DNA from: Limnephilus marmoratus | Lineage: Eukaryota > Arthropoda > Insecta > Trichoptera > Limnephilidae | Assembly: GCA_917880885.1 (NCBI GenBank) | Contig: OU862907.1 | Location: 65,715,072 to 65,779,071 of the forward strand | Direction: 5' to 3' | Length of the DNA stretch: 64,000 nt | Shown here: in pieces, positions 25,201 through 61,000 of the stretch | Layout: the number at the start of each line of letters is the position of its first letter | Position numbering within the stretch: position 1 is the first letter of the stretch | Position numbers and translations under genes: made by a program | The notes under the pieces: generated by a model | Seen by the model: the letters and a program-made list of their open reading frames with translations, nothing else | The model's database searches: none | Told to the model about the DNA's origin: nothing

Positions 25201-28200
25201 CATTTAATAATAATATAAGGTATATTTGCGGCACGTTCCAGAGTGGAAGATACTCTCGTCCTTTTTTTTCTTTACATTAACTCCACATAATTTGCATAAT
25301 TTCATGATGCCAGAACTCACTATTGTATACAGAAAACATCGCGGGCATGGACACATCAAATCCCCAAAGTTTCATCGCAATCGGATGAATGGTGTAGGAA
25401 ATAATTTCTTGATGCCAGAGCTCACTATTTTATATAAAAACCATCACGGGCATGCGCACATCAAATCTCCAAAGTTTCATGGCAATCGGCTGAATGGTTT
25501 AGCAATGCAAAAACAACTCGGATACAAACATTTTATTTTTATATAATAATTTTTATATAATGAGTAATAGAACACAACAAGTCAAAATTAACAACCATAT
25601 TAGCAATCCACTTTTTTTTTTTTTATTAAGGAGAAAATACAGATACAGACGTCAATTAACAAGAATATACAAAACAATTAATAGAGAATTCGCCTGCATC
25701 CAAACTATTTCTCACGAATTAACATTAACAGCAGATGAAAACATATACAAATACTTTTACCTTTAAATACAGAAAAGACGTATGTATATACATAAGTAAA
25801 TATTATTTTACAAATAGAGAGATGAAAAAAAAAATTGCAATATCCTTATAAAAGTTTACAAATTGATTTTGGAAAAATTTCCGATAACATACGGAGTTCC
25901 ACAAGGAAGCATTCTAGGGCCCGTTCTTTTCACTATTTAAATAAATGAACTTTGCAGCATGGAAATAAACGGTGAAATAATTAGTTAGGCAGACGACACA
26001 GTTTTACTCTTTAAATCTAAGGATTGGAATAATGTATTTAACATAGAAAATTTAGAAATCACTAGAGTAAAAACATGGCTAGACTCAAACATACTTACAC
26101 TAAACATATCGAAAACAAAATTTACAACTTACAGTATAAACAGCACGGGACAACCAAAAAACAACACAAACACCATAAAAATACACGAATGTTTAAATAA
26201 CAACATCTGCAATTGCCCTTCTCTAGAAAAAACAGAACAGATAAAGTATCTAGGAATCGTAATTGACCATAACCTAAAATGTACACATCATATCAAACAA
26301 ATCACAAATAAACTCCTTAAAACAATACACATTTTCCTAAACATAAGGAACATATATAAAATAAAACAAATGAAAACAATATATTTTGCACTTTGTCAAT
26401 CAATAATAGAATATGGAATAATTGTCTGGGGAGGAGCAACAAACTCAGCTATCGTTCACTTAGAAATCGCACAGAAAACGATCTTAAAGGTAATTCTTAA
26501 AAAACATAGACTAACTGATACAGACCAAATATTCAACATTTGTGACGTACTAGATATACGCCAATTATACGTTAAAACTCTACTAAACTACATTTTCGAC
26601 CAAAAAAACAAATTTCAACAATCTCAAAATATCACTAACAGACCAATAAGACAATCGTACAAAAATAACATAAAAACTCCGACAGTGAATACAAGCTTTG
26701 GAAAAAGGCACTATAAATGTCATGCTATAAAAGCATTCATCAATCTTACCCTTGAAAATAAAATAGAAGAAAACAAAAATAAATTCATACTCAAAATTAA
26801 AAATTGGATTAAAGAACAAAAAAGACAATATTTCCAAAATCTCATAACATAAAAAGAATAAAACACATAAATGTAACACACAAAAAAAAATCACATCATT
26901 AAAAAAAATATTTTACCTAAATTATAAATTTTTATTTTTTATTTAATTTTAGCATTCTTTTTTTTTTTTTTTTTCTTATGCAGCATTATTTTAATATTAT
27001 TTTTAAAGTAATATGTATTAATTTTTATTTTATAAAAGTGAGCTACCCAGTGAGGCCGACATTGCTGAATTGTATTTAAAAATGTTAGATATTATGACAA
27101 ATAAATAAATAAATATATATAGATTTTTTCACTCACCCTTTTATGCATTATTATTCATGCTGTCTCACTCATACACGTCTTACGGTTTGAAAGACATATG
27201 CATGTATGAGTGAGACATATATTCATACCGTAAGACATATATGTTCACCACACTAACTTGCGAATTTTATTACAGTGCTGGTGGTGCTATACCCGTTGGC
27301 AAAGCGCGTCATGGATTGCCCGCAACTAGTGTTAGGGCTCGCCTTCAACTGGGGGGCCCTGCTGGGCTGGTCTGCCCTCAGAGGGGGCCTAGACCTCTCT
27401 GTCTGCCTGCCCCTGTATGCGGCCGGCGTCTGCTGGACCCTGCTGTACGACACGGTGTACGCTCACCAGGATCGCGAGCATGATGCGCTTATCGGCGTGC
27501 GTTCCACCGCGCGGTTACTGGCCGGGGATACGCCAAAGTGGCTGGCGGGATTCGGCGCCGGAATGTTGGGAGCACTAGCGCTTGCTGGGCATGCCGCACA
27601 ACTGCATTGGCCGTACTATGCTTGCCTGACCGCCGTAGGAGCCCATCTTGCCACACAGGTATTTTATTGTAATGTATTTAAAAAGTGATTTTTGTCATAT
27701 ATTGACGCCATTTTAAATGTCTCCGGTTGCTTTTCGGATAAAAATGGCCCATTATCTCTTGAATCGGAAAACATTTTTTTTTAATAATTGTAACTCCCAC
27801 GTTTGTTATTTTGAACTTAAAACGAAGCTATTGAAATGCTTTATCTATTATGACCATAGATGTTGCAAATCCGAACTTCGTAGACTATTTTAGAACCATG
27901 TTAAAAATAAATTTTTACAATATTTTTTTAACGCAGAATTTTCGATCAACGATTTTACAGTTAAAATTAAGTCCCTTTTCCATAAATATACACCTTTCAT
28001 TATCAAGTATACCACAGACAACATACAGAAATCTGAAATATTCTATGTTGACTCGAGTAAGTACCCCTGACGGCAGTTTCAAAGTAACAAACACGCAGGA
28101 TTCGCGCGGTTATAAACTTTACGATTTTTTAATGTTTTTTTTACAAATATGAAATCAAAGGTCAAATAAAGGTTAATTTATTGGCTATATAGCACTATAA

Positions 28201-40052: not shown

Positions 40053-43000
40053 CTGCAATTTAAAAAGTGAGGTTATTTTTTAATATGCAATTCTAAAATT
40101 GATTTTGGAATGCAATTTAAAAATTAATGCTGTCAATGTTGATAAATTTAACTACATATTGTTTTGATAAATCTAAATTTGATTTTGGAATACTATTTTA
40201 AAATGAATGCTCTCAATGTTGATAAATTTAACCATTGTTTTGATAAATCTAAATTTGATTTTGGAATACCATTTTAAAATGAATGCTCTCAATGTTGATA
40301 AACTAACTATTGTTTTGATAAATCTAAATTTCATTTTTGAATACCATTTTAAAATTAATGCTGTCAATGTTCCTAAATTTAACTATGTATTATTTTTATA
40401 ATTCTAAATTTGATTTTGGAATTCCATTTTTGTATGTGCCATACGCACAGATAAAAGCGCAAGCAGAAGTCTGTTGAACCGCGAACGCTTATGTGTTATA
40501 CTGTCACATGACTCTACCAAATATTTCTTCCTATGGTAGGACAGGGGGTCAGTTGAATTACAAAGCTGCCACGAAATACCATTTCTTTCTTTGTACTGAA
40601 TCCGTCAACTTGACAGCTGTCAACCGCCCGTTTAGGCAACTCCGTTATTAAAATGACCCCTCTCCTGTTTTCGGCGGAGAAAGGGTTGCATAACTTTTCG
40701 TGTATCGCCTCAGGAGCGGTTACGGTGTACGATCTGTATTATCTATGGTTGTTCGGCACATAAGCCGCTTAGGTGTGACAGGTCTGATGGGATTGTTTGG
40801 AGATCTTAATTTAGCGTGCGCTGATCTTTTATCTCTTATCTGCATGTGTGGCACCTAAAGTTAATGCTGTCAATATTATTAACTATGCATTATTTTGATA
40901 ATTCTAATATTGATTTTGGAATGCAAATTTAAAATGAATGCTGTCAATGTTAATAAATTTAACTATTGTTTTGATAATTTTAAAGTTGATTTTGGAATGC
41001 CATTTTAAGGCTGTCATACCAGCAAATCATAATTTCGATTCCGACTGCACCGCTCACACATCAGCCGTTGCAAGCGGACGTTTTTGGAACTAGATTTCGT
41101 TCCGCTAGAAGCCGGGTTTCACGTACCTATAGTTCACGCGAAGCTGGACCTACAGTATGGTTCAGATAAAGATGTTGAATTCTCGCTTCCAGAATTTTAA
41201 TAAGTAGTAGTTATTTGTAATTTGTGTATTGAAGTGCGTAGACATAAATAGATACATAAACACAGTAGGTATAAAGTAGATACCTACACAAAAAACAATT
41301 TGTTATATTTTTTTAATATTTTGGTTTTTGTTTTTTCATTTTATTTTACGGCCATTAGAGTGGAAGAATTGAAACGTTACTTGAAATGGCTTTAGCCGTG
41401 TTTAGTGACCAGATCTGAAAAGTCAGGTACTTCCCCACCTCCATCTTCCCTAACTCCTTCCCCTCCCCCACTACCTTCAGCCTCACAACATACCCCAATT
41501 GGGGGTGATAGTCCCACTGGCTCCAGACGGGAGCAGTTGGGACTCTTGTGCGGTATTCATGAAAAAAAGAGTACCTAATATTCAGTTGGATTGTAAAAAA
41601 TATCTCATTTTGAAATATTTATTCGTGTGCATAATTTTTAATTTTATATTTATGTGAATACCGCACAAGAGACCCAAATGCTCCCGTCTGGAGCCAGTGA
41701 GACTATGACATGACTATGGGGTATAGTATGAGGCAGAAGGTGGTGGGGAAGGGCAGGAGATGGGGAAGAGGAAGCGAAGAATTACTTGGCTATTCAGATC
41801 TGGTCACCAAACACGGCCAAAGTAATTTTTAGGAACGTTTCAATTCTGAATGGTGGTCTTACACCAGGGCGATACTAAAGTATCTTCCACTCTGGAACGT
41901 GACGCAAATATATTATTTTTATATGAAATAACCCAAATTAGTCAAACAAAATTTATTTGCCCACGCCGGGATTCGATCCCACGACATTCGGATTGCGAGT
42001 CAAGAGCCTTACCTCTTGACCACGCCGGCCGTCAATAAATAGTATCAGTAATTTGGAAGGCGGGTATGGGTACCGCCGTCCCGGGAACCATGTATTGGAT
42101 TATCAACACCGTACGGGTAGCCCGGGTTCATGGGGCGAGGTTTGTCAGGATCTCGGCGGCGGTGGAATCTGCCCCACCAACTACGTAGAAGGCCGGATCG
42201 GGAGAGACCTTTTTTTACAATCGCTCGACACATTGCCTATCTCTTCTTTGGGGATGCTGTGTGAAGGTTCGTTTCAGGGAAAGGGAGGAGAGGATCTTCT
42301 GAGAAGGAAAGGGTATTAGGGGTGGGTAGAAATGTGGGGGTCAGCGTGTCCAGGAGAGCGGATGTATGAATCCATCCCTCCCACTGCGGTGCAAAGCGAT
42401 GTTCCGAGAGAGTAAGGCTGGAGAAGTCAAAGGGACTCCCTCAACCACTTTCTCTAGATCCAACCTGCCATGCAGCTGGTGCGCAGACGCATCCGCCGCC
42501 AAGACCTGAAAAAACCTCACCCCATGAACCCAGGCACCCCTGCTAGTCACCAAACGTTGCGAACCACTAAGGATGACCTACGGCAGACGTGTTGGTTATC
42601 AAAAAAATGGTTCCCGGGGCGGTGGTACCCATACCCGATTCTCATGTTTGTTATTTTTGTAATACGAAAAATGGATATAAAAAAGCCTACCCCCCATCCC
42701 TCTCAACCCCCTCCCCCTCTCACCCCACAACCTCTAACCACCCTCCACCCCCCCGCCTCTTTTACCCCCCCCCCCTATATAAAAATCAATTGCTGTTTGT
42801 TAGTTTCACTAAAACTCGAGAACGGCTGGGCCGATTTAGCTGATTTTGGTTTTGAAATGTTTGTCGTAGTCCAGGAAAGGTTTAAACGTTGAGAAAATAT
42901 GGAAAAGTTGCGAGGAAGATAGTAAAATCAACAATTTAATTCTCCCATATAAACTGTTCTACATACTTTTCTGTGAATTGCTAACCGTTCATCCGATTGC

Positions 43001-46000
43001 GATGAAACTTTGGTGAGTTGTTGTGAGCACGCCCGCAAAGTAGTCCAGTCAATAAATGCTCCAAAAGGAGGTGTAGAGTGCGTGAGCAGGGACCTAAGCG
43101 ATTCCTCCAGAAACTTGTTTAGGGTGCTTAGGGTGTGAACATACTAAAAGTCCTGACGTCTTGGTTGTGAGCTAGGGGGAAGGGGGGGAGGGGGAGGTCC
43201 CAATTTTCGGGTTTCCGCTTATATCTCAAAAACGGTGCGTCACACATGAAAATTTCCTAAGGATAAGTAAAAAAAGCTCATAAAATTATCTACAACTTTT
43301 ATTCTTTACGTAATTTTCGAAATCACGTCCATTTTTGACTTACACGCTCCACAAATGTAGATATTTTTGAAAAAAATTATTTTACCTCACATTTTTCATC
43401 AAACATTCCTTCATATCGTCTAAAATATTCATCAAAGAAAGAAATTTATTTATAAGAAGTTGTAATAAATTTAATTCCCTTTTAGAATATATATACATAT
43501 GCAAATAAGTCTCCAACCAGTAAATATTTACAGCAATTTTAAGGTTTTGCGTAAAATGTCGTCATTTTCAGAAAAAGCTGTTTTTATCTTATTACTGACA
43601 CACCGACGTGCAACGACGATTATGCGACGCTCTTTTAGTAAGGCGTATGATCAGATATGACCATGGAAACCACATTGATGCTATCTAGAGATGCATGAAA
43701 AGTAATCATTCGGTACTGAAGTAATCGGTACTCACCAAGTAATCAAAGTACCGACTACTAAAAACGAAGAGTATCCGTTACTTTCGAAATGATTACTTTC
43801 ATTGATACCTCAAAATGATTACTTTCGATGCGGATACTTCAGTACCGATTACTTGGTTGTTATTTGTGCCGCTAGAGGCGCTCTACGTTAGAGCCAGCTG
43901 TTCATAAATAAACCACACTTTGTACCGATTACTTGGTCTTTTCTATTTGTGCCGCTGGAGGCGCTACCACGCCAGAGCCAGTTGTTCGAAGCGTAAACGG
44001 TTTAGGAACGGTATTGCCAGAGACAAAAAATATTGCGGTGTTTTCATCGGTAAAAAAACGCTTTCGGTCGATATTTATGTTTGCGTACCTTGCTATCTGA
44101 TCTAATTGTATATTATTGCTACCAATATATACTAAGTATTCAAGTTTTTGACGGTAGGTAACTACCAAAATTTTCAAACGGTGTAAAAAATATGATTATT
44201 AGATATTATTACGACTATAAAAAGTTTTCACAGTAATAATTTTAACACTGCTTTTTTCCTTCACACATTATAAGATTTAAATTTCTGTGGAGTTTACAAA
44301 AAAAAATACGATTATTATTATAAAGATAAATTTGGATAGTAGAAATTTCCGCTAAGTAAAAAGACCGCCTTTAACATCTATTATCATAGGTATAATATGA
44401 TATTATGTGAGATGTAAATAAATAATAAATAAAATGTATAAAAAATTACCATCAGCCTATAATAGTGTTTTATTAACTTATCCCAAAGCTAGAAAAATAA
44501 AAAAAAAACTGGCATGTAAAATTACTTTCGAATTTCAATGGAAAATGATAAGTACGTTAATCCAGTGTTAATATGTAATTTACGATCAAAATTGCCTACG
44601 TAAACAAAAAAAGAACCGGGATCTTGTTGTAACTATGGGGAATGGATTCCATTTCAGTTTGTTTATATTATTGTAATAAAATTGTAATTGTTAGTGATGC
44701 GATACTAATCCTTTCCATATTGTATTCATGACGGGACTCAAATTAATAACTGAAAATAAAATTGTTTTATTCGTTGAATGGTAAAATAGTGAAAGTTCAT
44801 CAGTCGTACGTACAGCTTTGCCAACGGCTAAATTAGCATGTTAACTTTAGTTCGTTGTTTACGAATTTGTGTCAGTTTTTATTACAATATTTGACTTTGT
44901 TTTTACGTAATAATATATTTAATCTGTGTGTTCATTTAAATTGTTTATAAAGTATTGTGTTTGGGCCGTTTGTGATCGTTGAAACTTTTGTGCAAATAAG
45001 TTTAATATTATCCAATCACGACTGATGAGGGATGCTGCAATATTTTGGTATGTACCTACACATAAAAATAATATATTATGTAGCTGTATTCCATATAAAA
45101 TATCTTCTCCCGTATTCTGATTGCTTGTATAAAATCAAAAATAAAGTTTAAAAAAAATCTAAACACACAAAACTCTTCAAAACATTCAAAATACCTATAA
45201 ATACCTAACGTAGAATCCTAATAATGCATAACCAAAGTACCTACGCGCTATTCACGCTAACGAAAAACACAAACGTCAAAATGTAACCAGTAACGATTTG
45301 TTTCTATTATAAAAGTATCCGGCGGTATCCGGAACCGAAAGTAGTCAAATGTAATCAAAGCATTCAGTAACGAATTGATACTAGTAGTCGGTAGTACCCG
45401 AAAGTAATCAAAGCATTCAGTAACGATTTGATACTTGCAGTAGTTACTACCCGAAAGTAATCAGTAACGATTACATAGTAACGATTACTTTTTGTGAAAG
45501 TAACGGATACCGACGGGTAGTAAAAGTACCGATATTGAACACTACTAATGCTATCATTCAAAAGCTGAGAAGGCATAACAGGAGGCAGAGGTATTTTGCA
45601 CAATGTACTAGAAGTGGTTAGTTGGTATGAGCGCAACTCATGAGATCTGCACTTCCCTTGAAGAGTATTGTGGAGTCTTCACGTCCAGTAACAACACAAG
45701 GACCTCGGACAAGCCCACCGAAGTAAAGATGCAGCAGACATTTTCAAACTCAGTCAGTGGTTTGATGCACATCCTCCCTTCCCACAAGCCAATGAAATAA
45801 TGTCAATTCCCAATGTCTTCTGTCAGCTCGTCGATAAAAAATCACGATGAAAAGGTTGCAGTTGACCCAACATTTCTGTTTCACCGGATGTGTATAAGCA
45901 AACGATCAGATGAGGATTTGAAGAAATTCTTTGAGTATGAGTTGGCCCCATTTCCCTTGGCACTGTTCAATGAAGGTGGGATGTGGAAGACAACTAAATC

Positions 46001-49000
46001 TGTCCTGTACAGCTTATTCGAGCCTACCAAAAAACTGGTCTACTGTCTCAGGTGAACATAGTTGTGGACGGAAAATTTCTACTACACAGAGTAATTTGGC
46101 AAAAAGATGCCTTCCTTGTCACAATTTGTGATCGTTACATCAACTACGTCAACCACCACTATCCTGGATGACTCACACTGTGGTATTTGATTGGTACCCA
46201 AACCCAGCCAACGGTACAAAATCACAATAACAGATGCGATGATACAGACTGAGAAGGTCAGCTGACATCAATTTGACTTGGAACACTTCAATACCCGTTA
46301 AAAAGGAAGATTTGTTATCCAATCCTACCAACAAAAGTAACTTCATCTCTTTACTACAGACGAAGCTTCGGGAGAATGGGATACAGACTCTTCAGGACAT
46401 GATGCTGACTTCCTTGTTGTGAAGATTGCTGTGGAACATTCCTCTCACAGTTTTGTGAGAAGCTTTCACTTCCTTTTGATTGCTTCCACTCCTCCCACCC
46501 AAGATATTCTGCTGCTGACAACGGACGACGGAAAACCAAAACAATGCCACTGTCCATCCAAAAGATGCAGCACCGTGCATTTGAACACATCCTGTTCTTA
46601 CATTCATTTACCGGCTGCGACACAACATCTGCAACTTTCAGGAGAAGCAAGGTGGGCTTCTCAAAATTGTACTTGGAGTCAGAATTCATCAAGCAAGCGG
46701 CAATGATCTTTATAACCCCTCCTCTACTCACGGCGAGGTTGAAGAGGCTGGAAATAAATGTTTCCTGAAATGGTATGCGGCGCCAAAAAGACAGACCTTC
46801 CTTAACCAGTACCGCTTTTAGTCGTTCACAGGGTTGGTGGCAAATATGAAGCCTGACATCAGCTCCCTCCCTCCAACAGAGAACGCAGTTAAACAGCATT
46901 CCCAGTGCACCGATTGAGCTGCCCCCTGAATAATGGGGGTGGAAACATGAAGGAGAGACCCTGATGCCAAATACAACAAAAGATCCACCAGCGCCGGAGG
47001 TCCTTCTAAATATGATATTTTGCCGCTGCACCAGGGATTGTGCAATTGGCAAATGTGGATGCCGAAAAGCAATGCTGACCTGTTCTGCAGCGTGTCTCCG
47101 AGTCTCCTGCCAAGGGAGATGCCTCAATAGCGTGCCTGTTGCCGAGGACGACGATGACGACGACATAGAGCCCATTCAGCAAGAACCATCCAATACTGAG
47201 GATGAAGATGCCATGGATGAACAACGCTTGCGAGGACCCCCACGTCCAAGGAGGATGAGAATGTAACATGATGTTATTGAGAACAGTGATAACAATGAGA
47301 TCTATAATTTTATGTGCTTAATGTAACGAAATAGAATAAACATTATGATTATAAAATACAATTATGTATTTTTCAAGTAATATGATTTTTACCTATTTTA
47401 TTTAATAACTGGTTTTAAAGTGTGGTCACACATATTATTAGGCGAACGAACAAGTGTGTGTCAGTAATAAGATAAAAACAGCTCTTTCTGAAAATGACAA
47501 CATTTTACGAAAAAACTTCAAATTGCTGTAAATGTTGAACGGTTGAAGATAAATTTACATATGTCTATATATTCTAAAAGAAAATTAAATTCTTTACAAC
47601 TTCTTTCGAATAATTTTTTTTCTTTGATGAATATTTTAGACGATATGAAGGAATGTTTGATGAAAAATGTGAGGTAAAATGATTTTTTTCGAAAATATCT
47701 ACATTTGTGGAGCGAATAACTCGAAAATGGCTGGGATTTCGAAAATTACGTATAGAATAAAAGTTGTAGATAATTTTATCAGCTTTTACTTATTATCAAA
47801 AAATTTTCCTCTGCGGCGCACCGTTTTTGAGATATAAGCGGAAACCCGAAAATTGGGACCTCCCCCTCCCCCTCCCCCCCCCTAGCTCACCACCTAGACG
47901 TCAGGATTTTTAGTATGTTCACATCCTAAGCACCCTAAACAAGTTTCTGAAGGAATCCCTTAGGTCCCTGCTCACGCACTCAACACCCCCTTCCTTGACT
48001 GGACTAAAGGTTTCTGTATATACTGGTGACCTCTGGCATTATGAAATTTGTATATAAAATTGCAATTGGTGCCACGCAAACTGTTTGAAAACTGAATGTA
48101 CCGGGAGTGAATGTATGGAATGCGGGAGGAGGTGGCGGATGGGAGAGGGGTGAAGGATGAGGGAGGGAAGGGGAGGGGGACAAGGGAGGGGAACTCGGGA
48201 GAGGGGGCCCGCGGGATGGGTTGGGGAGGGGAACCCGGGAGGTGGGAGGGGAACTCGGGAGGGGGGAGAGGAAAACGGGTGGGGTTTAAGGGATAGGGGA
48301 AGCGGGCGAGGGGAGTGAGGAGAGGGGAAGGGGACGTTGGAGAGGAAGGGGAGGCAGAAGGGGAACGGGACGAATGGGAAAGGACACGAGCTCTGGCATC
48401 ATGAAATTTGTATAATAAAATTGCAATAAGTGGCACACGAGCTGTATGAGAACTGAATGTATCGGGAATGAATGTATGGAATGCAGGAGGGGGGAGGGGA
48501 ACCCGGGAGGGTGGAGGGGAACTCGGGAGGGGAGAGGGGAATTCGAGAGGGGGATCCGCGGGAGGGAGGAGGTGATTATGGGAGGGGGGAGGGGAACTCG
48601 GGAGGGGGGATCGCGGGACGGAAAAGGGGGGGAGTAGAGTGAGGAGAAGGAAGGTGGAGGAGGAGTGGGAACGCGAAAGGGGAAGGGGACGCGGGAGAGG
48701 AAGGGGAGGTGGAAGGTGAACGGGACGAATGGGAAAGGACGCGCAGGGAGAAACAATTTCGTTATTAAATGGCAAAGGTTGGTACCCGGCATATATATAA
48801 ATGCTAATAAATGAAAATGAATCGCCGAAATGTATGTACGCGCATAACTTCCGAACGACTACACCAAATTGGATAATTCTTTTTTTGTTGTGTTTGTTAT
48901 TGCCAGGACAAGGTTTGTATATAACTACTGGTGAGCTCTGGCATTATAAAATGTGTATACTAAAAATTCAATGGGTGGCACGTGAGCTGTTTGAAAACTA

Positions 49001-52000
49001 AATGTACCAGAACTGAATGTATGGAATGCGGGAGGGGAGATAGGAACTTGGGTATTGGTGCCGCGGGTGGAAAGGGACGGGAACCAGGGAGGGGGAGGGG
49101 AACCTGGGAGGGGGGAAGGGAATTCGTGAGGGGAGTTGGCGGGACGGGGGAAGAGGAGTGGAGTGGGGAGTCGGAAGGTGGAGGAGGCGGAGTGGGAACG
49201 TTTGAGGGGAAGGGGACGCGGGAGAGGAAGGGGAAGCGGAAGGTGAACGGGACGAATGGGAAAGGACACGCAGGGAGAAACAATTTTTTGTTGAACGGCA
49301 TAGCAACGCATGCCGGGCACCAGCTAGTATATAAATGAAAATGAATCGCCGAAATGTATGTACGCGCATAACTTCCGAACCCATGCATGCCGGGTACCCG
49401 CTGTATATAATTTATTTATTTATTTATTTACGGACAAATAGTCCATTAACAATATAACAATAACACGAATAACAAGCGAGCCTAAAGGCCCGACCCGCCT
49501 AGCAATTGATCACTGTTCGCATCGATTACCGTTCGCATGTCATTTTTTGTAACCAGCACCACTTTTCGTAACAATCACCACTTTTCGTAACGATTCACCA
49601 GTTAACCCCATGTGTCGAGCATGCGTAAAGATGTTTTACTTTAAAAAAATGGGGCATTTGGGACTCTTGTTTTTTGTATCGTATAATAAGGGACAAATAA
49701 AAACATTTATTTTTAAATATAAAACTTTTTGCATAAAAATATTCAATGAAAATGAAATTCGGTCAACCCTGTAGATTTTACGAACGTGAAACAAGGAATT
49801 CGTATGTATTTACATTTCGTTTCCAAAATATTATTTCAAACTGTTGTAATTCAGAGCGACGCGGACACGTCCTCGTCTGGCCACGTTTCGGACCGTAATG
49901 AACTGCGAAATTTTGTGTTTCGGCGCTATGATAAAATCGTCAAATGCGAAGCTGTTAATTAATTAAAATTAAATGCTTCCCAAAATTATTTTTCGGTCAA
50001 ACTTATTTATGATTTGTTAATAATGTCTTAGCACAATAAGTATGTAAAAAAATATAAAATATATTAGTTTATAAGTGCGCAAATAAATACACAAATGGAC
50101 CAATTTTCGTCAAGAAACACATGTACGTACATATTTTTTAATGATTTTATTGAAACTAAAATTAAAATTCTAATACATAACTTTGCTAGATAATGTATTG
50201 ATTTATTTCACTGCATGATTACATTATTTGAAATGGGTGTGGTATAATACAAAAACTTTTTTGAAAATTTAACAAATCTGCCAACGACCTATGGAATAAC
50301 CTTATTATACTAAAAATTAAAAAAAAATCTAAAAATTTATTACATAACTATGCTAGATAAAAGAACAATCTTTCGAAATCCATTTATAATTTTTTGTGGA
50401 AAAGAGTCAATACGTCTAAAAACTTTTTTGAAAATGACATATTTCTGGGTTTCTCTACCTATGTCCTCTTAAAATGAATGCTGTCAATTTTATGGTTATT
50501 TCCTTTTGGGGTGTTATGCCGTGTTGCGCTACCTCCTCCTTTAGCCAACGTTTCGGACAGCGTTACAGTGTCCATCGCGGAGGTAGCGCAACACGGCATA
50601 ACACCCCAAAAGGAAATAACCATAAAATTTTTGGCCGTGAAAATCTAAAATCATATCCGAATGCTGTCAATGTTGATAAATTTAACTATGTATTATTTTG
50701 ATAATTAATGCTGTCAAAGTTAATAAATTTAACTAAGTATTATTTTGATAATTCTAAAATTGATTTCGGAATGCTATGTTAAAATTGTTGTCAACGTTGA
50801 TAAATTTAACTATGTATTAATTTGATAATTTTTTTAATGAACTAAATGAAATCAAAGTTAGCTTATTGTTGAATAAATGCCAAAGAGGTGACAACTAAAT
50901 GACATTTTTTTCTATTACTTATAATTAAAATTAAAATAGTTTTTACCTTGCCACCAAGCCGGGTCTTGGTCCCTGTTGGTGACGGCAATTATATCATCCT
51001 TCTCAAAACTCAGCTCGTCAGCATTTTGCGCCGTGTACGGATACAGCGCGATGACCTGCGCAACACACAAACAACAAACATACTTATTAATAGACAATTT
51101 TTTTTGTGAATATTGCACGAGAGATCTGACAGCTCCCCACTGTCTGGGGCCAGTAAGACTATGGCATCCCCTATTAGTGAGTAAGTTGTGAGGCTGAGGG
51201 TTGTGGGGAGGGGAAGGAGATGAAGAGATGAGGAAAATAATTCCCCTCAGGGCCTACGTCATCTTTAGGGATGCTGTATGGAGGATTATTTTAGGAAAGG
51301 AAGGAGAGGAAGTTCTGGGAAGAAAAAGGGTATTAGGAGTGGGTAGGAATCTGGGGGTCAGTGTATCCAAGAGTGACGGATGTATGAATCCATCTCTCCA
51401 CTGCGGTGCATGTTCCGAGAGAGTACGGCTGGAGAAGTCAAAGGGACTCCTTCAACCATTCTCACCGATCTGGCCTGCCATGCAGCTGATGGGCAGATGC
51501 ATCCACCGCCAAGACCCGGACAAACCTCACCCCATGAACCCAGGCATTCCAGCTAAGTTACCAAACATAGAGAACCACTTAGGGTGACCCATGGGAAAAG
51601 TGTTGGCAATCCAAATAAATGTTTCCCGGGGCGGCGGTACCCATACCCGCCTTCCAAATGACTTAAAGAAGTGGTTAAAACCATTTCAAGCAATAAATTT
51701 TTTTTTTTTTACATGAATACCACACAAGAGTCCCAACTGCTCCCTTCTGGAGCCAGTGGGACTATGGAATCCCCAGTTGGGGTATGTTGTGAGGCTGAAG
51801 GCAGTGGGGAGGGGAAGGAGATAGGGAAGAGGAAGGTGGGGAAGTACTTGGCTGTTCAGATCTGGTCACCAAACACGGCAGAAGCCATTTCAAGCAACAT
51901 TTCAATTCTGAATGGTGTTCTTACACCAGGGCGATACTGAGAGTATCTTCCACTCTGGAACGTGCCGCAAATACACTACATATTATTTTAAATGAATAAA

Positions 52001-58000: not shown

Positions 58001-61000
58001 TACAATATTTCCTGTCTTTGAATAAAGGGCTTCATCACAATATCAGCTTTATACGATTGATGGTAAAATATATTTTTTGAAGTGATTGAATGGGTTATTC
58101 AAAATGTCAATTTCATTATTAGAGCAGTGTATAGTGTTATAATGTCTTAATGTTCGTGGTAAAGGGGAGAAATATCCTGTATTTGTGTGGTAGGTAGATA
58201 TATAGAAAATATCTTGCATCCTCCTTGTTGAATTTCTTGACGGTGTGTTAATGTTAATTTGGGATAAAATGTTTGGTGTATCAACTGATGCATGTATAAT
58301 TTTGTGCAGAAGCAATGAATCAGAAAGTTTCTGTCTTCCTGTCAGAGAGTGTAGTTTATAGTGTAGAATTCGGTCTTTATATTATTATTATTATTATATA
58401 ATGAGCAGGCAGCATTCTGCTGATGCGCTCATATCTAATTTCAATAGTTTGACAGGAAATTTTAATTTTCAAACTAAGTTAGTCCTTTTTTCTCTCCAAA
58501 TATGAATCCAATAGAGCTTTAAATTGGTTTATGTTAGTTGCATCGATGACATGTTGTGGGAGTTTGTTCCAAGCATCCACCACTCTATTTGCAAGGAAGT
58601 GTTTTCTAGGATTAGATGCAAAAGACGTTTTGGTAATTTTTTTCGAGTGTCCACGGAGAATTATATTTTTACTAGTAGTGAAGATTCCTTGGATGTCAGG
58701 GCAGCTGTAGTGTCCAGATAAAATTTTGAAGGTCTCGATCAAGTCACCCCTTTCTCTTCTATCTTTTAAGGTTGGTAATCTTAATTCCTTGAGTCTATCT
58801 TCATATCGCCGATCTTTCAAAGCTCTTGGTATTTTAGTGAAACGTCTCTGTACTCCCTCTATCAGATTTATATCCTTTGCGAAGTAAGGACTCCATATTT
58901 GGAAAGCATATTCCAGGAGAGGTCGCACATATGTTTTGTATATTTTTAACATCATGTCCGGTGTTAGGTCAAGGAATGCTTTCCTGATTAAATATGTTAG
59001 TGAGTTTGCTCTTTTCACAATCCCAGCGATGTGCGGTTCCCATTTTAAATCATGTGATATGGTAACTCCTAAGTCTTGTTGTAATGTCACTGCTTTATTT
59101 ATTTGTTCCTGATCACGAAGATGTGTTAGAATTAACATTAAAAATTATGTAAACGGGTCGGCATGATATAGATAACCATAATAAATCTGAAATGAAACGC
59201 CTGTTTAAGCAATGTGATTTAATCTTTCAAATTACAACCAGATAAGATTACGTATGATTGACTATGACTCGACAATCTAGTAAAATCAAAACTACGGGAC
59301 GTGGTCACTGCTCGAAGATGCCAGTCAAGTCGTATTTGACGCATGTTTTAAGTTAAATATTAGGAAGCTACTGTGGATGATAAAAGTTAAATTTACGGGC
59401 GCCAGTCGATTTGAATTAATATAAGAAGCATATTTGTAAAAAGCATTAACTTTGTGGCTCGCCATAAACTTTGCATTAAACTTTGCCAGGGACTGTGAGT
59501 TCCCCGAGGTTAGAGTCCTCAGTTTGGCAAGAAATATGTCCAAAGTATCTTAGGATACGTTGTAGGCGGATAGTTGAAAACCATCTGTGGGCCTAGCTCT
59601 TCCAGAATGGATAAATTAGGACGTTCGCTCATCGAAAAACTGAAAACAAACCGATCAACCTCCTGAATAAAATCGATATTTTTCTGATTTGACATATCGC
59701 AGATTACTCGAAAACTTGACAGTTTGTGAGCCGCTACCATGGCAACCTGTCGACAATGCAACTGAAATGCAACGTCAACAATGCAACGTTTCAGTTGCAT
59801 TGTTGACAGATTGACAGGTGGTAGTGGCACGTCAAGTTTTGTCATGTTTTGACATGTCAGATCAATGACGTTATATAAATAGACTCGCCATAGTCTCACA
59901 TACTCGCAAAATAATGTGGCAAGTAAGCAACACTCTTTTGTTTTCAGTAATTTCTTAATTCAAAAGTTATTCATGTATTAAAAGGATATGCCACTTCCAC
60001 ACCGAAGCCTAACTTCCAACTCGAACTTCCAACGCACGAACTGACGAAGGAAGGGTGCTTCTGAAACCGGTAGAGTGTTTATAAAATAAAGTGGTCTACA
60101 ACAAATTTGTATGTGTTTTTATTGTAATATAAGAAGTGCTATATTATCGACAAGTAGTAATTATTGACTGACCCGGCCACGTGTTGCTGTGGCTAATAAA
60201 ACACTTTGTAAAATCCAACCTTTGTAACCACAGGCGTCTTTGAGTTCATCACGAAGAGATCATCAGTGCGGTTTGCACGTGAGGTACTCGTAGCTCGTCG
60301 CCCATTTGATTGACTTCGACAATCTATGTCAGCTGGTCTTTTCCTTGGCATATTAAAACAGTAAATAAAGTTCTCACGCACTGACAAACTGATGATAGAA
60401 GATTTCAAATGGTAAAAAAATGACAGGTAACGTTTGACAGCGACTGAAATATGACAATCGGAATTCTTTTTTTTTTGGATTCCAATTCTAGATTATGTTG
60501 TGCTTCTGAAAGTAGGTAGAACAGTAGAACTGTTTATATGAGAAAATGAAATTTTTGTTTTTACTATCGTCCTGACAATTTTTTCATATTATCTCACCGT
60601 TTAAACCTTCCCTGGACTACGACAAACATTTCAAAACCAAAATCACCTAAATCGGCCCAGCCGCTCTCGAGTTTTAGCGAGACAAACAAACAGCAATTGA
60701 TAAGAATAATAAGATAAGAAGATATAATGTGTATAGTAAGCTATCCATAAAAGATATATATATGCCTTCGCGGACTTTTTTGTAGATCTATAAAAGAGGA
60801 ATATCCCACCATTAATTGTTTTGTTATATCCCAAAAGGATTAGGCAGCGTTTTCGATGAAAGGTACCAGGCGGCTGGACTTTTTTCCGACACTTCTAACA
60901 ATTATCGTTATGTTTCAACCAATTTACACAAATCCTTGACAAATTACATACCTAAACCTTCCTCACGAAACACTCTATCTATTGGTGAAAACCGCATGAA

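Follow-up and report, generated by a model that had tools for sequence, protein, structure and literature searches.

A decayed, probably AcademX-type DNA transposon multiplied as the cargo of a Kolobok-like repeat in Limnephilus marmoratus

RESULTS

A long-armed transposon with a truncated gene

We analyzed a 64,000-nucleotide stretch of the Limnephilus marmoratus genome (contig OU862907.1, positions 65,715,072 to 65,779,071; hereafter the window), in which an element at 43041-48006 holds the remains of a gene with an FTGCDTTS motif between inverted arms. This element very probably arose by internal deletion from an AcademX-type DNA transposon. It decayed, was amplified as the cargo of another repeat, here called the carrier, and was later hit by a hAT-type insertion.

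The arms are terminal inverted repeats, the left one at 43041-43603 (plus strand) and the right one at 47456-48006 (minus strand). Their alignment shows 89% identity across 540 bp, and the outer end of each starts with TAGTCCAGTCAA; the right arm ends with TTGACTGGACTA. AAG adjoins both arms, at 43038-43040 and 48007-48009, and the flanks fused on one AAG match a related repeat near 25340-25500 straight across the junction, as expected of an empty site. The left arm is identical over 560 bp at 40 of 40 scored genome places (the best 40 of 2374 candidates, the window among them), and a search of phage DNA with this arm gave no match. Without the nested hAT-type insertion, the element is 3096 bp long.

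The sole recognizable gene between the window arms is a nuclease half. Similarity to a protein family of about 1475 amino acids (aa) delimits this decayed gene, which represents the C-terminal part of the family protein, to 45556-47266 on the plus strand. Its coding sequence is disrupted by four in-frame stops, at 46228, 46240, 46819 and 46931 in the frames used, and by several frame changes. Comparison with the family places remains of an EXO1/FEN1/XPG-type nuclease at 46040-46765 (plus strand), including FTGCDTTS at 46607-46630, and translation shows nine cysteines clustered toward the C terminus at 47021-47122 (plus strand); most cysteine columns of this cluster are nearly invariant among relatives. 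The family's GEDxDL motif is missing from all three forward frames of the window nuclease remains. Pfam analysis of four broken pieces returned one weak match at chance level, and a literature search for the motif letters FTGCDTTS found nothing. An earlier note, made from the window sequence, had described inverted arms of about 550 bp, an AAG duplication, a clean junction of the flanks in the host repeat and a decayed open reading frame with FTGCDTTS and nine clustered cysteines, and this anatomy was confirmed throughout.

The window copy resembles the family protein only from around residue 800 of 1475 onward, the match starting a few bases past the left arm, and both DDE aspartate motifs are therefore lost from it. 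A gene remnant with the last DDE motif (DMTME, for DMTIEQ in the family) was located by tblastn at 43612-43686 (plus strand). Its matches, to P0002 aa 179-208 (E 0.014) and P0121 aa 812-826 (E 0.89), are weak, yet they sit at the expected place and in the expected order. As the deletion joins this remnant almost directly to the left arm, the window copy is, on its sequence, an internal-deletion derivative.

A DDE-nuclease fusion protein in full-length relatives

The family proteins of about 1475 aa, which include entries from Cydia pomonella and Pararge aegeria, have a DDE domain with invariant D/D/E columns upstream of the nuclease. The predicted fold of this domain is transposase-like and nearest to those of the P element and Hermes. 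The FTGCDTTS part matches an XPG/FEN-type nuclease in fold and conserved acidic residues; this is one of the families (DDE, KDZ, PIN and FEN) against which the earlier note had asked for a check. The likeness to EXO1, FEN1 and XPG extends to the GCD of FTGCDTTS, but here the domain lies within a transposon protein. The gene had also been proposed to encode the mobility protein of a DNA transposon: it does represent part of such a protein, but not the transposase alone, since the family has the upstream DDE domain. A plain Foldseek search with the DDE model found nothing at E<=0.001, and one with the long model returned a single row, Xrn2. Pfam recognized DUF6589 alone in the family proteins, above the cut-off in two of six full or long members and in none of the ten others; the literature on DUF6589 yielded nothing relevant.

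We searched the genome with the DDE segment, and 8 of the best 150 matches (1709 candidates) lie in open frames of at least 1100 aa. One of these marks a full-length element at C5:59110365-59116514, which is 6150 bp long, starts with TAGCCCAGTCAA, ends with TTGACTGGACTA and is flanked by a TTA duplication. Its arms of about 570 bp are 95% identical over 547 bp and, as in the window element, enclose the gene, whose frame runs for 1488 aa from the first Met to the stop; both ends were read, and the openness of the middle was taken from the DDE-segment search. Comparison of its arms with those of the window gave no convincing match outside the ends, and this element is therefore a distant cousin rather than the parent.

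Other derivatives were encountered in the same searches. In about 40 of the 150 DDE-segment matches the open frame varies little in length, at 311-313 aa, and most of these match only to query residue 203-204; by their sequence, these copies look like an oppositely cut derivative that keeps the DDE part. The closest relatives of the window nuclease half all contain stops (best 101 of 8363 candidates). They comprise C11:39520253-39521488 and 100 other scored places, near-equal copies with 1-5 stops and frames of 413-573 aa, and apparently stem from the amplification of a second dead derivative.

Independent insertions with 3- or 4-bp duplications

We searched for ends whose flanking bases differ from those of the carrier, which yielded 17 left and 22 right ends. 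The end patterns deliberately leave out some flanking bases, chiefly the carrier's own base by each end, and these numbers are therefore an undercount. Pairing of ends on the same strand and within 15 kb gave seven pairs, with 10 of the 17 left and 15 of the 22 right ends unpaired. Identical 3-bp flanks were present in five of the seven pairs (ATT, TAT, GAT, AAT and GAT); chance agreement is 0.09 per pair, giving p of about 1e-4. One further pair has a 4-bp duplication, with ATAA on each side, and one has neither. The genome check advised in the earlier note thus returned constant ends with 3- or 4-bp duplications at independent sites.

Three of the seven pairs span 3058-3108 bp, approximately the length of the window element minus the hAT; a deletion derivative of about 3.1 kb thus seems to have moved several times. 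Independent same-ended copies of about 3.1 kb lie at C1:34347958-34351065 and C6:10621492-10624596, and one of 6338 bp at C25:20147614-20153951. The unpaired ends include a C28 arrangement with oppositely oriented ends, seen in two occurrences. Four right ends have the common flank ACAA (C1:61579018, C11:41333450, C19:38788118 and C25:26526856), and a further amplified carrier may therefore also hold the Academ-type element.

The carrier, the nested insertion and the order of events

The Academ-type element is enclosed in a repeated unit at 41009-50468, whose bounds are common to two other genome copies with unrelated flanks beyond them. Over its full length the unit is 99.4-99.6% identical to these two copies, and TTAA stands on both sides in all three; in the window, copy comparison places it at 41005-41008 and 50469-50472. 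The unit has the ends GG...TC (GGCTGTCATACC/GAGGACATAGG), and 444 exact matches to TTAA followed by its left end are present in the genome. Its length without the hAT is about 7.6 kb. Kolobok elements, unlike piggyBac, combine TTAA duplications with 5'-RR/YY-3' termini, according to PMC9587614. The carrier has the same duplication and termini and looks, on its ends alone, like a Kolobok-like repeat. It differs from Kolobok in that no transposase gene was recognized in it, although its only two frames of at least 200 aa, both on the minus strand (one antisense to the gene, one proline-rich), were not searched and no autonomous partner was sought. The carrier represents a recent burst of large size, apparently a non-autonomous one. 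To the right of the Academ-type element (47995-49380), it contains G-rich units recurring every ~360-500 bp.

The earlier note had overlooked both this enclosing repeat and a nested insertion at 43686-45547. Flank comparison shows the insertion to be bounded by an 8-bp duplication, ATGCTATC, at 43678-43685 and 45548-45555. Its ends, TAGAGATG/TAGTAGTG, are hAT-like. It is missing from all 28 distinct other copies inspected across the site 43685/45548, one of which (L005) was aligned over 169 of 200 bases. Judged by its duplication and ends, it is a hAT-type insertion and the latest event in the window copy.

The four gene stops are present in all 29 loci that cover them, namely the window (L029), one duplicate (L032 = L022) and 27 distinct other copies; L003 is without the relevant stretch, and L027 and L028 were outside the analysis. 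Carrier flank adjoins the block in 27 of the 28 distinct other copies. The exception, L031, diverges from the window right of the gene, after 47272, with the carrier left end at the expected distance, and its departure would reflect another insertion or a rearrangement. As the stops are common to all 29 loci and the carrier flanks to 27 of 28 copies, decay of the gene preceded the spread of the carrier.

DISCUSSION

The element is likely of AcademX type, an assignment set by described features. The AcademX nuclease is reportedly (Kojima 2020) of the XPG type. As described in PMC10045372, AcademX elements combine a DDE transposase with a nuclease, inverted ends and 3- or 4-bp duplications; because our family matches this description, the superfamily, which the earlier note could not name, is not one without a name. 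The same text ties the 3- or 4-bp duplications of AcademX to an encoded nuclease and the 9- or 10-bp duplications of AcademH to a helicase. AcademH belongs to the same superfamily, but membership in it was rejected, as a nuclease replaces the helicase and the duplications are of 3-4 bp. In PMC5199201, Academ duplications are given as 3 bp and those of the P element as 7-8 bp. The shorter duplications led us to reject membership in the P superfamily. We know of no nuclease fusion with P element or hAT (Hermes) transposases. A literature search for Academ together with XPG in one text found nothing. The window copy differs from AcademX in being without most of the DDE part, and its arms and those of the C5 element, at about 550-570 bp, are long.

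Long arms in two divergent members, together with a DDE fold nearest to the P element and Hermes, would fit a separate, unnamed superfamily akin to Academ, with a fused DDE-XPG protein. We consider this unlikely, as AcademX is itself described as the lineage that encodes a nuclease and makes 3- or 4-bp duplications (PMC10045372), and the 6.15-kb length of the C5 element is near the mean that PMC10294476 gives for curated bivalve Academ elements, 5565 bp. A full length of ~5.5-6 kb is thus a feature shared with AcademX. It is also unlikely that the long-armed elements form a distinct lineage, with DDE, XPG nuclease and cysteine cluster in one polypeptide, in which nuclease-only derivatives were favored as non-autonomous partners, their nuclease acting in trans on transposition intermediates before decay.

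The proposal of the earlier note, a superfamily mobilized by a FEN/PIN nuclease protein alone, was prompted by the nuclease half being all that can be recognized between the window arms. It is now very improbable: full-length relatives have, upstream of the nuclease, a DDE-fold domain whose acidic residues are invariant, the window gene was already dead when the carrier spread, and a similarly ended full-length element in the same genome holds the whole protein frame, by which nuclease-only mobility was rejected as a general case. The block at 43041-48006 might also be merely part of the surrounding repeat, given that carrier flank lies beside it in every distinct other copy except L031. We give this reading next to no credence, since the related empty site aligns across the junction and identical ends occur at other sites with different flanks and duplications; these independent insertions led to its rejection.

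We propose that the autonomous parent of the AcademX-type derivative encoded one protein of about 1475 aa between inverted ends of about 550 bp. Its N-terminal Cys/His pairs would probably bind the ends, and its DDE domain would cut and paste at 3-4-bp staggers, followed in the polypeptide by the XPG/FEN-like nuclease and the C-terminal cysteine cluster. Roughly 800 codons were lost from the start of the gene by deletion, both DDE aspartate motifs among them, whereas the nuclease half was spared. Full-length relatives may have mobilized copies of the derivative length in trans. One such copy inserted at AAG in the TTAA-flanked Kolobok-like repeat, after which its gene decayed. The carrier later multiplied, reaching at least 444 left ends, probably through a TTAA-specific transposase acting in trans, with the dead element included, and the hAT element entered the window copy last.

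Elsewhere in the window, reverse-transcriptase-like frames at 25989-26852 and 58479-59144 are, judged by eye, probably remnants of long interspersed nuclear elements.

The FTGCDTTS/Tesmin-TSO1-like-CXC proteins form a large family that is filed as uncharacterized in insect, coral and spider genomes. They now have a likely name, DDE-XPG fusion transposases of the Academ type, and a domain map. The window also clearly exemplifies how a dead transposon can be multiplied when another element carries it as cargo, and copy number and sequence freshness are therefore no proof of a living gene.
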